The position numbers were made by a program, and so were the translations under genes. Below the pieces are notes generated by a model. It worked only from the letters and a program-made list of their open reading frames with translations. It did not search any database and had not been told where the DNA came from. Source: Protonemura montana (lineage: Eukaryota > Arthropoda > Insecta > Plecoptera > Nemouridae). Taken from it: 64,000 nt of DNA. Location of the stretch: assembly GCA_947568835.1 (NCBI GenBank), contig OX387604.1:27390851-27454850 (forward strand), in the 5' to 3' direction. Shown here one piece after another: positions 18,066 to 26,579 of this stretch; the stretch's first letter is position 1; every line of letters starts with the position of its first letter.

Positions 18066-18143
18066 GTGTCCAAGTAGCTCAATTGGTTAGAGCAACACCC
18101 GCGACAGGTGGAGATCGGTGTTCGAGTCCGCCTTTGGGCATCA
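18066..18143 (+). repeat. Full-length tRNA-like unit related to the 52-bp array, opposite strand
   Basis: On the plus strand the same D-arm and anticodon-arm module (AAGTAGCTCAATTGGTTAGA onward) is followed by GGTGTTCGAGTCC, a good B box. A 7-bp acceptor pairing is possible between GTCCAAG and TTTGGGC with two wobble pairs. The T-stem pairs poorly and the anticodon loop has G where U33 is expected, so this is not called a tRNA gene. It looks like a more complete relative of the source of the 17632-17917 array. Confidence 0.6.
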
Positions 18144-18179
18144 ATTTTTGAGACGAGTATAGTGTTGTCAATAATAAAA

Positions 18180-18590
18180 TACACATGACCAGTTCTGTTC
18201 GGGAGAGAGGTTGGAGGGATGAAAGTTAAGCAACACTGCGCTGGGTCAGGTATTGGATGGGTGACCATCATACACATGACCAGTTCTGTTCGGGAGAGAG
18301 GTTGGAGGGATGAAAGTTAAGCAACACTGCGCTGGGTCAGGTATTGGATGGGTGACCATCATACACATGACCAGTTCTGTTCGGGAGAGAGGTTGGAGGG
18401 ATGAAAGTTAAGCAACACTACGCTGGGTCATGTATTGGATGGGTGGCTATCATACACATGACCAGTTCTGTCCGGGAGAGAGGTTAGAGGGATGGAAGTT
18501 AAGCAACATTGTGCTGGGTCAGGTATTTGATGGGTTGCCATTATACACATGTCCAGTTCTGTTCGGGAGAGAGGTATTTCAACTGGGTTT
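18180..18590 (+). repeat. 91-bp tandem array resembling the internal promoter half of 5S rRNA
   Basis: Units starting ACACATGACCAGTTCTGT recur at 18181, 18272, 18363, 18454 and 18545. Each of the first four contains AAGTTAAGCAACACTG (5S box A-like) and, 26 bases from TAAGC, TTGGATGGGTGACC (box C-like). This is the same spacing as in eukaryotic 5S rRNA. The 5' and 3' strands of 5S helix I are missing, so it is not a 5S gene. Copies three and four carry small substitutions. The last unit is partial and lacks the box region. It is probably a 5S-derived SINE or pseudogene amplified in tandem. Confidence 0.65.
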
Positions 18591-19140: not shown

Positions 19141-22100
19141 ATGCTTGGACTGAGGTATCTTTTGAGGTAAACATGCAATAGAGATGTGTCAGTGTACATA
19201 ACCTAAGTTATTCTATATCTCAGCAATTTGCCAAATTATTGAACTTTTACCATTGATATCCTATATGCTTTTGTCCACAGACCAAATATTCGTCAGTCTT
19301 CCCTATTGGTCCAGTTAAAGCAATTTAGTCTGAGCTCAACGGCTAGAAATAGTTCCGATGATGAAGACAACCGGACCGACCGCAGACCCAAACGTAAAAG
19401 CGACGAGAAAGAAAAAAAGGCCATCAATAAACTCAATGCGCTGCTAAGTGCGATGGTGGAAGAAGACAAGACCTTAGCAGCAACTAAGGTTAGGAAATAG
19501 TGTAGTTCATTTAACCTACGGTGAAAGTAGGTGATACTTGCTTTCATTTACGATGCAGTAACATCACTTTTGTCGCTGCAGATGCAAGCTGTGCTCTCAC
19601 GTCCGAAGCGTATGGTGAAGAAGTTGGTTCCAGACGGACGGCCGGGAGTTGAGAGCAAAGTGGAGGCCGCGGCAAGATCTGCAGCTGCCAGCCTCGGAGG
19701 AGACGTTGCCAAGACGGAGTCAGACTTGTTGGCTCGTTTGAGAAGTCAAGCGGCTTCTGAACGGAGGTGAGATTGTGTCAAGGTATTCGGTGGCGGGAGA
19801 GAATTGTTTGTGATAATTCTGAATTGAATTATAAATAGAAGTGACATTTAGTGCCGGTCTATCTGTGTCAGGTTAGGTTAGGACGTGAAAAAATGTAACG
19901 GATCACTTTTCAGTTGTTTTTTAGGACCCTTACAGTTGATTAATTTGATATTTGCTTGGCAACAGTCAATCAGAAGACACTTTTTTGTTTATCAACGGTC
20001 TGTGAACTACTCTGGGGCCGTTCAACTGATCTACTTTTATGATAGACAAGTTTATGACAGTTTGAAAATGTTTACTATTTTCTTATTTCCTGACTTAAGC
20101 TTTGTCAGTAAAACTAGCAGCATGTTTGAAGGTCTTCATTAGTTAAGTTTTCAGATGTTGCTGGCATTGAAATCAAAACAAATTGCTTCAGTCAAAATGT
20201 GAATGTCAATTTAATGACAATCATTTCATTAATTACCTAATTGATTACACTTGAAAAGTTGCAAAGAAAATATCATTGAATTCTGACAGCAAACCTACTA
20301 GCAAAGAAACTGACAGCTAGGTATCTACTAGCAAAGAAACTGACCGCTAGGTACCTACTAGCAAAGAAACTGACCGCTAGGTACCTACTAGCAAAGAAAC
20401 TGACCGCTAGGTACCTACTAGCAAAGAAACTGACCGCTAGGTACCTACTAGCAAAGAAACTGACCGCTAGGTACCTACTAGCAAAGAAACTGACCGCTAG
20501 GTACCTACTAGCAAAGAAACTGACAGCTAGGTATCTACTAGCAAAGAAACTGACCGCTAGGTACCTACTAGCAAAGAAACTGACCGCTAGGTACCTACTA
20601 GCAAAGAAACTGACCGCTAGGTACCTACTAGCAAAGAAACTAACCGCTAGGAACCTACTAGCAAAGAAACTGACCGCTAGGTACCTACTAGCAAAGAAAC
20701 TGACAGCTAGGTATCTACTAGCAAAGAAACTGACCGCTAGGTACCTACTAGCAAAGAAACTGACCGCTAGGTACCTACTAGCAAAGAAACTGACAGCTAG
20801 GTATCTACTAGCAAAGAAACTGACAGCTAGGTACCTACTAGCAAAGAAACTGACCGCTAGGTACCTACTAGCAAAGAAACTGACCGCTAGGTACCTACTA
20901 GCAAAGAAACTGACCGCTAGGTACCTACTAGCAAAGAAACTGACCGCTAGGTACCTACTAGCAAAGAAACTGACCGCTAGGTACCTACTGGCAAAGAAAC
21001 TGACCGCTAGGTACCTACTAGCAAAGAAACTGACCGCTAGGTACCTACTGGCAAAGAAACTGACAGCTAGGTATCTACTAGCAAAGAAACTGACAGCTAG
21101 GTACCTACTAGCAAAGAAACTGACCGCTAGGTACCTACTAGCAAAGAAAAAGAAATGAAACTGTCAGTGGAACTGTCTCCACTGTCAGTGGAGAAAGAAA
21201 TGAAACCGAATGAATTGCCTGGCAACTTTGTAACCTGTGTTGTTTGGATGTCAGAGTCGCTGAACCGGAGCTTGTCTTGGAACGAAGTGAGGAAAGTAGA
21301 ATAAAGACAGCGCGGAGTCTGACTTCGCTTCTGTCTGGAATGCAGATTGAGAAGAAGTCGACCAGGAAGACGAAGGATATCGGTAAGTTGACTCATCAGC
21401 AATTTCTACTCCACACACTTGACATAGAATTGGGAAATCTCATTTAGATTATTATTTAATTATTATCATTGTGTTCCAATACGCGTTTAAAATAAAATCA
21501 GACGTATTTTTCTTTTTATAATCCGATCATAACTTTTCTATTTATATTTGTTTTAAGAAAGGCTAAAATATGAATTCTCGTAGCGGGATGAAAACGGGCT
21601 GTGATTAACTACAGGTAGTTCTGACGTCATTTTGTTGTATCCTTTGCGTTCGCTTCTGTCTTTTTTTACGTTTTATGACGTCATACTGACGTCAGATTTC
21701 ACTTCATGTCATAAAAAACGACGACCCTTGTTTTCGTACGAGATTCAAATACAAACATTTCAAACAGGTGTATTTTATTCAAAATTGAATTTAGAAGATA
21801 ATAAAAAAATACGTGTTCATTATTTTCTCACAAATAAAAATAAAAAAAAGTTTCAAATTTAAAGAGATTTCCCTATTAACTATAAACTGGAAAAACCATT
21901 TTTTATAAGCTATAAAAGGGGACCCAGCTATGCTGATTGTGAGCTTTATAGGGGATTGCCGGCAAATCTTCAAATTAAAAGGGACAAGAAATTTAAAAGT
22001 TTGCTCGAGAATTTTCCAATTGAAAAATGTTTTTACACTGTAAAAGATTTTTTAATTTTGCAGAGTCGATGTCCTAAAAAAAATGTAAATATAGAAGATA

Positions 22101-25100
22101 AGTTGATTTATTGTAGTTTTATTGTTGTAAACTGGTTGAACTTTCCAACTATCACGATGTGTTTGAACGGAATAAAAAAACCATTGTTATTAACAGAGTT
22201 GAAGTCAAATGCAATGTAGAAGAGGACATAAAAGTCTTTCAAATTTTCTACTTGCCTCTCAGTCTGCCTTATTAACTAAAACTATATTTGCAATTATCTA
22301 TTAGATGTTTATGTACTCTTAATTAAAATTATTTGCTGGTCTATGGACTATAGTTGTAAATATAAATTCCATGTGTACCTCTGTACCTATGTACCTATGT
22401 ACCTATGTACCTATGTACCTATGTACCTATGGTTCTATGGTTCTATGTACCTATGTACCTATGTACCTATGTACCTATGTACCTATGTACCTATGTACCT
22501 ATGTACCTATGTACCTATGTACCTATGTACCCATGTACCTATGTACCTATGTACCTATGTACCTATGTACCTATGTACCTATGTATCTATGTACCTATGT
22601 ACCTATGTACCTATGTACATATGTACCTATGTACCTATGTACCTATGTACCTATGTACCTATGTACCTGTGTACCTATGGTTCTATGTAGTATGGTCCTA
22701 TAATATTTAGTGCCAAGTTCATAGTGATAATGGTTTTAAGTTATTTGATAGATTTAATTTTAATGTATCTAGTGTAGATATAAATGAATTTAAAATAATA
22801 GGTATGAAGTGGGCAAAACAATTGTAATATTATATGTGTAAAATACTGGCTAAATAGCTAATAAATAAAATAATTATTATTATTACATTTTATTATCAGG
22901 AAGACCGATAACCTCACAAAACATTGAGAGTGTCGACGACAAGTTTCTAGTGTTGAACTTTCTTGCAGACGAGGAGAAGGAACCGTGGATTGAACGCAGA
23001 GGAGGGGAGGGCGGAGCTTGGAGGGGAGAGCGGAGGGGGGAGCGGAGAGGGGAAGCTGACAGCTACGATCGACGCCCGAGAATGTGAGTTGATTGATTGA
23101 TTGATTGATTTCCTTTATTGGCTTAAATTTAAAAAATTGTCTCTACGTCAGAATACAAATTATAAAAACAGCAAACCGAGCCTTGCGGTCCACAAACCAC
23201 ACGAACAAAGTCTTCATTTTGAATGGAATTTTTTTGGTAAAATAAAAAAATTCCGATTCTAATAACCAGAACATAAAAATTGTGTTTGAGAATCAACGTA
23301 TTGATGTTTGTTTGGTGTTGCTAGGCAACCAGAACGCGTGGTTCTGTTTGGCAAGGAATCTCTGAACATCTTCAAGACAGACTTTGTTTCGGTCGTCATG
23401 GCAACCGAGATGTCGACCTGGCAACGTTGCTTGGAACGTGAGCTCCGTCTGGCATCGACCCAGCCACCGGCCAATCACTTCCAAGAGATGATTCAGTGGA
23501 CCAATCAGGGCAAGCTCTGGCACTTTCCAATAGACAACGAGCAAGGTAAGACAGTTGCAATTGTTCTGTCACTTCATGAATGCTTTAAAATACCTTTTTC
23601 ACGCTGTAAAACAATTATAAATACCTTTGAAACAATTTTGAACGCCTAAAAACACCTTTAATACACTTTCAAATGCCTTCAAATTCCTATTTTAACATCT
23701 GAAAGGCTTACAAACACCTTCTGAACATTTCAAAAATGCTTTTAAACGCCTCTAACAAGCTTTTAAATGCTTTTAAACGCCTCTAACAAGCTTTTAAATG
23801 CTTTTAAACGCCTTTAAAAAGCTTATAAGTGCTTTTAAACGCCTCGAAAAAGCTATTAAATGCTATGGAACGCTTTCCTCGGGTGGGTTGAATGAGTACG
23901 TTGACTGCTTGGAAAAACCATTGCATACCCATCCAGATCATACGAACCCCTACTATACACGGACTACCCACTTTTCGGAATAAACTTTGTTTTTCAAGTT
24001 TTTATAGTGCAGGTTGTAGGGAGATTAAGAATTGTCGTTGCAAAACGCATTTTAAAGTTTTGCAACTGAGTATTTATCGGGCGTTTACCATGTATATATT
24101 TTTTGGGGTATACGCTCGGTGTCAAAAAGTGTTTTGGGTATACGGCGTATACCCGCGTATTCCCTCGACTACACCACTGGTGTTACCAACTTGCAGATGT
24201 TAATACAGTGTTACCAACTTGCAGATGTTAATACAGTGTTACCAACTTGCAGATGTTAATACAGTGTTATCAACTTGCAGATGTTAATACAGTGTTACCA
24301 ACTTGCAGATGTTAATACAGTGTTACCAACTTGCAGATGTTAATACAGTGTTACCAACTTGCAGATGTTAATACAGTGTTACCAACTTGCAGATGTTAAT
24401 ACAGTGTTACCAACTTGCAGATGTTAATACAGTGTTACCAACTTGCAGATGTTAATACAGTGTTACCAACTTGCAGATGTTAATACAGTGTTATCAACTT
24501 GCAGATGTTAATACAGTGTTATCAACTTGCAGATGTTAATACAGTGTTACCAACTTGCAGATGTTAATACAGTGTTACCAACTTGCAGATGTTAATACAG
24601 TGTTACCAACTTGCAGATGTTAATACAGTGTTACCAACTTGCAGATGTTAATACAGTGTTACCAACTTGTAGACATGGCTGATGAGAAGGACACAAGCTT
24701 TACTCATCACGTCTTCTTCGAGTCTCACCTGGAAAGTTGGTGCACGTGCACCGAAGTACGTCACTTCATGGATCTCGTCTGCGTCGGTCTCTCCAAGAAT
24801 CCATACATCTCAGCTGATGATAAACTGTCTCACATAGAGTGGTTCCGTCAATACTTCACTGACAAAACTCATCTCCTAGGTAATAGTAATAATAATAATA
24901 ATAATAACAACTAGTAGACCACCCGCTGCACACGCAGCTGCCATTGTGTTAGGTGACAGATAAGAGTGATGTGTCAATTTTAGTTCATTCAGTTCACCAA
25001 TTTCAGTTCCTCAGAAAAGATCTTTTTGCCAGCCTATTTGTAGCGTAGCAACGGAAATTCAGAGCTCAAGGTTGAAATAAAATTGAGATTTCCTTTGCTA

Positions 25101-26273: not shown

Positions 26274-26379
26274 CCTCAACCTCAACCAACTACAACTGCA
26301 CGAGCTAGATGATAAAGTGGAACTACGCAATGTAACATTTTCTAGAAATATAACATCTTTAATTGCAAACATAATGATT

Positions 26380-26579
26380 CTCAAATAACCTTGATAGAGC
26401 ATAGGATCCAGCCAGCTGATCTCAAATAACCTGGATAGAGCATAGGATCCAGCCAGCTGATCTCAAATAACCTGGACAGAGCATAGGATCCAGCCAGCTG
26501 ATCTCAAATAACCTGGATAGAGCATAGGATCCAGCCAGCTGATCTCAAATAACCTGGATAGAGCATAGGATCCAGCCAG
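26380..26579. repeat. 41-bp minisatellite downstream of the mS31 stop (~4.8 copies)
   Basis: TCAAATAACCTGGATAGAGC plus ATAGGATCCAGCCAGCTGATC recurs at 26381, 26422, 26463, 26504 and 26545 with only one or two substitutions. It starts about 110 bp after the mS31 stop codon and may lie in the 3' UTR. Confidence 0.93.

Follow-up and report, generated by a model that had tools for sequence, protein, structure and literature searches.

The gene for the mitochondrial ribosomal protein mS31 in the stonefly Protonemura montana is intact, and the end of its intron 6 is occupied by a 28-bp minisatellite whose unit was matched only within the array itself. Every copy carries acceptor-like AGs in a weak context, and the last copy, which is incomplete, holds the AG that joins exon 6 to exon 7 in the mS31 frame. 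This arrangement is probably a boundary minisatellite in which exon definition directs splicing mainly to the exon-proximal copy, the remaining copies being mostly silent decoys and the array as a whole a by-product of repeat growth. The analysis covered a stretch of 64,000 nucleotides, here called the window, and the features that concern the argument are collected in Table 1.

Table 1. Features of the mS31 gene and of its intron 6 array (positions within the window; strand given as in the analysis)
Feature	Positions	Strand	Remarks
mS31 exon 1 from its ATG (19141), coding part only	19141-19166	+	assigned with the least certainty; not covered by the Pfam match
mS31 exon 2	19281-19488	+	spliced model
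mS31 exon 3	19582-19766	+	spliced model
mS31 exon 4	21255-21382	+	spliced model
mS31 exon 5	22900-23083	+	spliced model
mS31 exon 6, phase 1 end, GAGCAAG then GTAAGA	23325-23545	+	spliced model, alignment
Truncated dispersed-repeat copy, abutting the array on the 5' side	23871-24179	.	carries AGs 24007 and 24012, the two that score highest in intron 6
17 complete 28-bp units GTGTTACCAACTTGCAGATGTTAATACA	24180-24655	+	each with TTGCAG and TACAG decoys and a branch-point-like TTAAT
TTAAT of unit 17, the last one, with the presumed branch A (24651)	24648-24652	+	putative branch point
Terminal partial unit GTGTTACCAACTTGTAG, 17 nt, with the genuine acceptor (AG 24671-24672)	24656-24672	+	
mS31 exon 7, probably terminal, stop at 24914; GAR-rich GAGAAGGA in its first 30 nt	24673-24914	+	
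AATAAA, polyadenylation signal by consensus	25076-25081	+	162 nt past the stop

mS31 is a metazoan protein, and its spliced model in the window consists of seven exons with consistent phases and a single open frame of 397 residues plus the stop. The predicted protein belongs to the family PF15433 (MRP-S31), which it matches over profile positions 30-302 of 304 with an E-value of 1.4e-69 and a score of 235.5 bits, above the curated cut-off of 28.7. Exons 6 and 7 alone, joined at 24673, match the same profile with an E-value of 4.2e-55 and align to solved mS31 chains across the join with a gap of one residue, and residues common to those chains reappear about ten codons into exon 7. By inspection, the donor after 23545 is the only one of good consensus near the end of exon 6, and its phase fits 24673. 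With GTAAGA next to a phase 1 end of exon 6, the mS31 reading results from a junction at 24673. The gene model and the AATAAA at 25076 make it most likely that no further exon follows exon 7. The C-terminus of the protein is a run of eight asparagine codons, AAT and AAC, at 24888-24911.

The array spans 24180-24672 and abuts the start of exon 7. A sequence-only reading of the window had described eighteen units beginning at 24182; the array is confirmed, with its start moved to 24180 and the eighteenth unit reduced to a partial one. This partial unit departs from the complete unit by a sole change, T for C at position -3 of the acceptor, which makes it TTGTAG, while the complete units vary among themselves only at unit position 7, C or T, with T in units 4, 12 and 13. 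With variation among the complete units confined to this position, the array is likely to be young or well homogenised. A search of the 258-Mb genome with a pattern of 26 nt of the unit, allowing up to three mismatches, returned at least 17 matches, all of them within the array, and the reversed control pattern returned none under the same conditions; a DNA search with 24182-24690 as the query gave only the self-match. The possibility that the array is a dispersed repeat was rejected because these searches gave no other copy of the unit. An interpretation as coding sequence was also rejected, as the TAA present in every unit closes the readings that enter from exon 6.

The array fills the space between the end of a dispersed repeat and exon 7. 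For this repeat, 40 matches including the window copy were scored out of 241 first-look candidates, so that there are at least 39 other copies, and the 39 scored are 94-97% identical over essentially the same stretch as the copy in intron 6. In the eight copies inspected, homology stops within about a base of the position where the array starts. Within the window, the terminal inverted repeat of this element was found at this copy only. Two readings of the order of events may be considered, namely that the dispersed repeat was inserted into an older array, or that it came to lie beside the acceptor before the amplification.

Several other arrays lie in the same gene. Intron 3 holds a 30-bp array of 28.6 copies (20293-21149), whose period, being divisible by three, leaves open frames of 292 and 296 residues on the two strands; intron 4 holds an 8-bp array, TGTACCTA, of 38 copies (22374-22679); and intron 6 holds a 31-bp array of 4.2 copies (23734-23864) just upstream of the dispersed repeat. 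With these arrays in introns 3, 4 and 6, repeat growth is common here, and 21 sampled 10-kb stretches of contig C1 contained eight arrays with a period of at least 10 and at least four copies. Elsewhere in the window, arrays of 91 bp (18179-18575) and 41 bp (26379-26579) are matched in period and, by eye, in unit by arrays at one sampled place on contig C1 (L011, 3802-5171 and 1848-2195, that of the 91-bp array on the other strand), and because of these counterparts they look like dispersed families. The 91-bp unit presumably resembles part of 5S rRNA; no Rfam 5S match was obtained for it. Near this array, an Rfam tRNA match of 32.5 bits at 18068-18140, not called by ARAGORN, is possibly a SINE.

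Besides the genuine acceptor, the 28-bp array contains 34 AGs. The sequence-only reading was right that tandem decoy acceptors exist, and it counted 17 of them; the number doubles because each of the 17 complete units carries TACAG as well as TTGCAG. Its expectation that decoy use leads to an early stop is borne out in all 34 cases, since exon 6 spliced to any of them runs into a stop after 7-12 residues. The last AG is thus the only productive one, as had been claimed, although it is not the only one in frame: ten of the 34 decoys keep the register of exon 7 and meet their stop inside the array. A decoy product would lack the residues of exon 7, that is, the 79 codons after the split one. The further proposal that such transcripts are lost by nonsense decay is weakened by the position of the exon. 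A stop in a terminal exon is not expected to cause decay dependent on the exon junction complex (EJC), which calls for a stop upstream of a later exon junction; with the gene model, the stop at 24914 and the AATAAA at 25076 all indicating that exon 7 is terminal, decoy stops would have no exon junction downstream, and the decay argument is therefore weak. Decay of decoy mRNAs by way of a long 3' untranslated region is possible.

The strength of these acceptors was judged against 27 reference sites of the same genome. Among 53 exon matches to PF00118 (the CCT family), five compact gene regions were taken, one of which (L035) was left unaligned; the four genes CCT2, CCT3, CCT6 and CCT8 were aligned to PDB chains with a spliced aligner, giving 25 introns, and the set consists of these minus three beside reference gaps plus the five other introns of mS31. 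It replaces an earlier set of 17 sites (12 chosen by eye and the five of mS31), which was dropped because the chosen peptides mostly follow a Q codon, favouring CAG. CAG is the prevalent type in the reference set (22 CAG, four TAG and one AAG), which agrees with the contrast already drawn from the sequence between a genuine TAG and CAG decoys. A CCT8 intron at reference position 373 (L036) has an aligned acceptor of the uncommon AAG type, in which ATACAAG is followed by GAATC.

On a crude score resting on 27 sites, built from the pooled pyrimidine tract and positions -4 and -3 and computed leave-one-out for the references, the genuine acceptor reaches -2.9, which is below all 27 references and below both the TTGCAG and the TACAG decoys. 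Higher scores are obtained by 40 of the 53 other AGs of intron 6, in agreement with the earlier, biased set (39 of 54 AGs, with the genuine one among the 54). The common TTGCAG decoy, at -0.1, exceeds four of the 27 references, and the decoy of unit 1 (24196), at 2.5, exceeds eight and has a better context than the genuine AG; 24196 and the AGs at 24007 and 24012 are the three top-scoring ones of the intron. Pyrimidines occupy nine of the 17 positions before the genuine AG, equal to the lowest reference value, and the preceding AG lies 16 nt away, a short distance that is shorter still in three of the 27 references.

Each unit also includes a candidate branch point, TTAAT; counted from its A, the G of TACAG follows after 5 nt and that of its own TTGYAG after 21 nt. 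Motifs of the form yTrAy at 15-30 nt before the AG occur at ten of the 27 reference acceptors versus 269 of 2000 random AGs, and the looser yTnAy at 15 of 27 versus 520 of 2000; over a wider interval of 15-45 nt the enrichment of yTrAy is smaller (12 of 27 versus 515 of 2000). With its weak score, poor pyrimidine content and TTAAT spacing, each unit resembles a full 3' splice site of low strength. According to the accessible part of PMC1431707, AGs closer than about 12-15 nt to the branch point can be bypassed, and so the TTAAT of unit 17 would naturally be used together with TTGTAG, the intervening TACAG being skipped. The same argument of spacing applies equally to every upstream unit. A fixed branch point had been suggested earlier as one means of choosing the last AG; one located upstream of the array is hard to square with scanning, since the decoy AGs would be met first, and one within the last complete unit fits better.

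What distinguishes the last copy may instead lie downstream of it. The first 30 nt of exon 7 contain four GAR motifs, the TTGCAG decoys of units 1 and 17, the two examined, are followed by none, and among the 27 reference exon starts 16 have none and two reach the four of exon 7, a result that is only suggestive of an enhancer because the motif set was picked after exon 7 had been seen. A purine content as high as that of the exon 7 start, at least 19 of 30, is found in seven of the 27 reference exon starts.

The origin of the array could be accounted for if the last 28 nt of intron 6 had been a weak, self-contained 3' splice site (TTAAT, a skipped TACAG and TTGYAG) that was amplified in tandem. 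Growth would have reached the edge of exon 7 and been stopped there by selection, and the edges of the array speak for such a boundary minisatellite, the 3' edge lying at the AG and the 5' edge at the end of the dispersed repeat. Exon 7, through its GAR-rich start GAGAAGGA and terminal-exon definition, would recruit U2AF and U2, which would go to the nearest branch point, putatively the TTAAT of unit 17, and the next AG past the steric zone would be TTGTAG. The upstream copies, with an equally poor pyrimidine tract and no adjoining enhancer, would stay mostly silent. Rare use of a decoy would yield an mS31 lacking what exon 7 encodes, about 80 residues, and its mRNA should escape EJC-dependent decay; the array would be a tolerated by-product and no regulator. 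The frame of mS31 is unbroken, with conservation as far as the C-terminus, so that at least some transcripts presumably use the last AG, and we infer that it is the one mainly used. The amphioxus mirages and human F7 intron 7, in which splicing is reported to be normal despite an array, may be read as parallels in favour. Against preferential use of the exon-proximal copy stand the weakness of the genuine AG, the better context of the first decoy at 24196 and the stronger AGs in the upstream dispersed repeat.

The array had previously been proposed to act as a copy-number dial, decoy use rising with repeat number so that the amount of functional mS31 would depend on array length. The 34 competing AGs, all unproductive, the higher scores of the decoys and the recent turnover suggested by near-identical units are in line with this proposal, as are two precedents: in ABCA7 intron 18, splicing is affected by the length of a VNTR (excerpt of PMC5954066), and in UBC a tandem array of splice sites leads to an isoform ladder (excerpt of PMC10809524). 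However, the decay arm of the dial is weak with exon 7 looking terminal, and the portions available of PMC3087553 and PMC6627357 report normal splicing for mirages and F7, respectively, which makes the dial rather unlikely. It seems improbable, too, that the array is a splice switch of variable length on a mitoribosome protein, its repeat number adjusting the proportion of full-length mS31 to a stable form that is truncated at the C-terminus and escapes decay; if true, the switch would consist of a complete 3' splice site, branch point and AG included, copied in tandem.

The high scores of 24007, 24012 and 24196 could also point to a mostly mis-spliced, hypomorphic allele, in which the first AG past an upstream branch point (24196, or 24007/24012) is dominant and little mS31 is made. 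We give little credence to such an allele, given the unbroken open frame, the intact splice phases and the conserved protein; a whole-genome search for a retrocopy or other spliced exon 6-7 junction (27-nt pattern, up to three mismatches) found none, which may also count against it. Tandem arrays are prone to assembly error, and an acceptor as weak as this one may raise the suspicion that exon 7 starts elsewhere or that the assembled repeat number is wrong. An error of either kind is nevertheless very improbable in view of the alignment to solved chains that continues through the join, the sole good donor of matching phase and the early return of the shared residues in exon 7. Structural masking, in which the array would form a rod, its decoys concealed and the last AG brought nearer, is highly implausible: the array with the exon start does fold better than 100 dinucleotide shuffles (z -4.7), and the last units with exon 7 do so moderately (z -2.9), but 66 of 200 arrays of shuffled units fold equally well, leaving hidden decoys unsupported. 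Pairing at the genuine AG resembles that at the TTGCAG decoys, whereas the TACAG decoys are less paired (about 0.5 unpaired in the global fold). The palindromy of the unit is ordinary, being matched by 505 of 5000 mononucleotide shuffles and by 680 of 5000 dinucleotide ones.

Among the closest relatives of the mS31 array are the mirages of amphioxus. As described in the available text of PMC3087553, these are minisatellite-like, length-unstable duplications of intron-exon boundaries in Adh3 and in the globin genes BflGb6 and BflGb9; AG/GT splice signals occur in many copies, reportedly with no disturbance of regular splicing, and copies at the boundary of a cluster escape homogenisation. The mS31 array, in a different gene, shares with them an authentic boundary signal inside the array, the genuine AG lying in the terminal partial unit, and copies that carry splice signals, 34 AGs in 17 units. 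Unlike the mirage unit, which spans the boundary and includes exonic sequence, the mS31 unit ends at the boundary, and the unit sequence after its AG agrees with exon 7 at three of 11 nt. For this reason, the array is not called a member of the mirages.

Two human introns offer a counterpart on the donor side. In F7 intron 7, with its 37-bp repeats, the authentic splice site also lies within one member of the array, and the exon-proximal, most upstream donor alone is normally used (partial text of PMC6627357). In ABCA7 intron 18, the VNTR unit of 25 bp likewise carries a splice site, beginning with a donor, and a single unit, out of frame, is retained when a cryptic donor is used (partial text of PMC5954066). 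There, in contrast to mS31, the array is on the donor side, an effect of length has been measured, and the stop can lead to decay. The two introns may be viewed as donor-side mirror images of the mS31 array. The UBC array is formed by dual-specific splice sites in tandem, which give the isoform ladder (excerpt of PMC10809524). Its units are coding, of 228 nt, and keep the frame, with AGGT sites that work both ways, whereas the mS31 array is intronic and out of frame. The CFTR TG/T tract, a dinucleotide and T tract that affects exon inclusion, has no array of decoy AGs. Located in intron 8, its length is associated with the splicing of the next exon (excerpt of PMC3778950).

An acceptor-side array like that of mS31 was not found among the open-licence literature matches listed, save for the boundary duplications of PMC3087553, and none of its kind appeared in the accessible portions of PMC2812944 and PMC8239992 or in PMC6692358. 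What looks new in mS31 is the acceptor side, the apparent copying of a whole cassette from branch point to AG, and a unit without exonic sequence. The boundary minisatellites of amphioxus would thereby be extended to a purely intronic, acceptor-side unit. With eighteen near-identical cassettes of branch point and AG in a row, differing almost only at position -3 and in the sequence downstream, the gene offers a natural experiment on the choice of a 3' splice site, and which cassette is chosen bears on whether first-AG scanning, proximity to the exon or the base at -3 decides.
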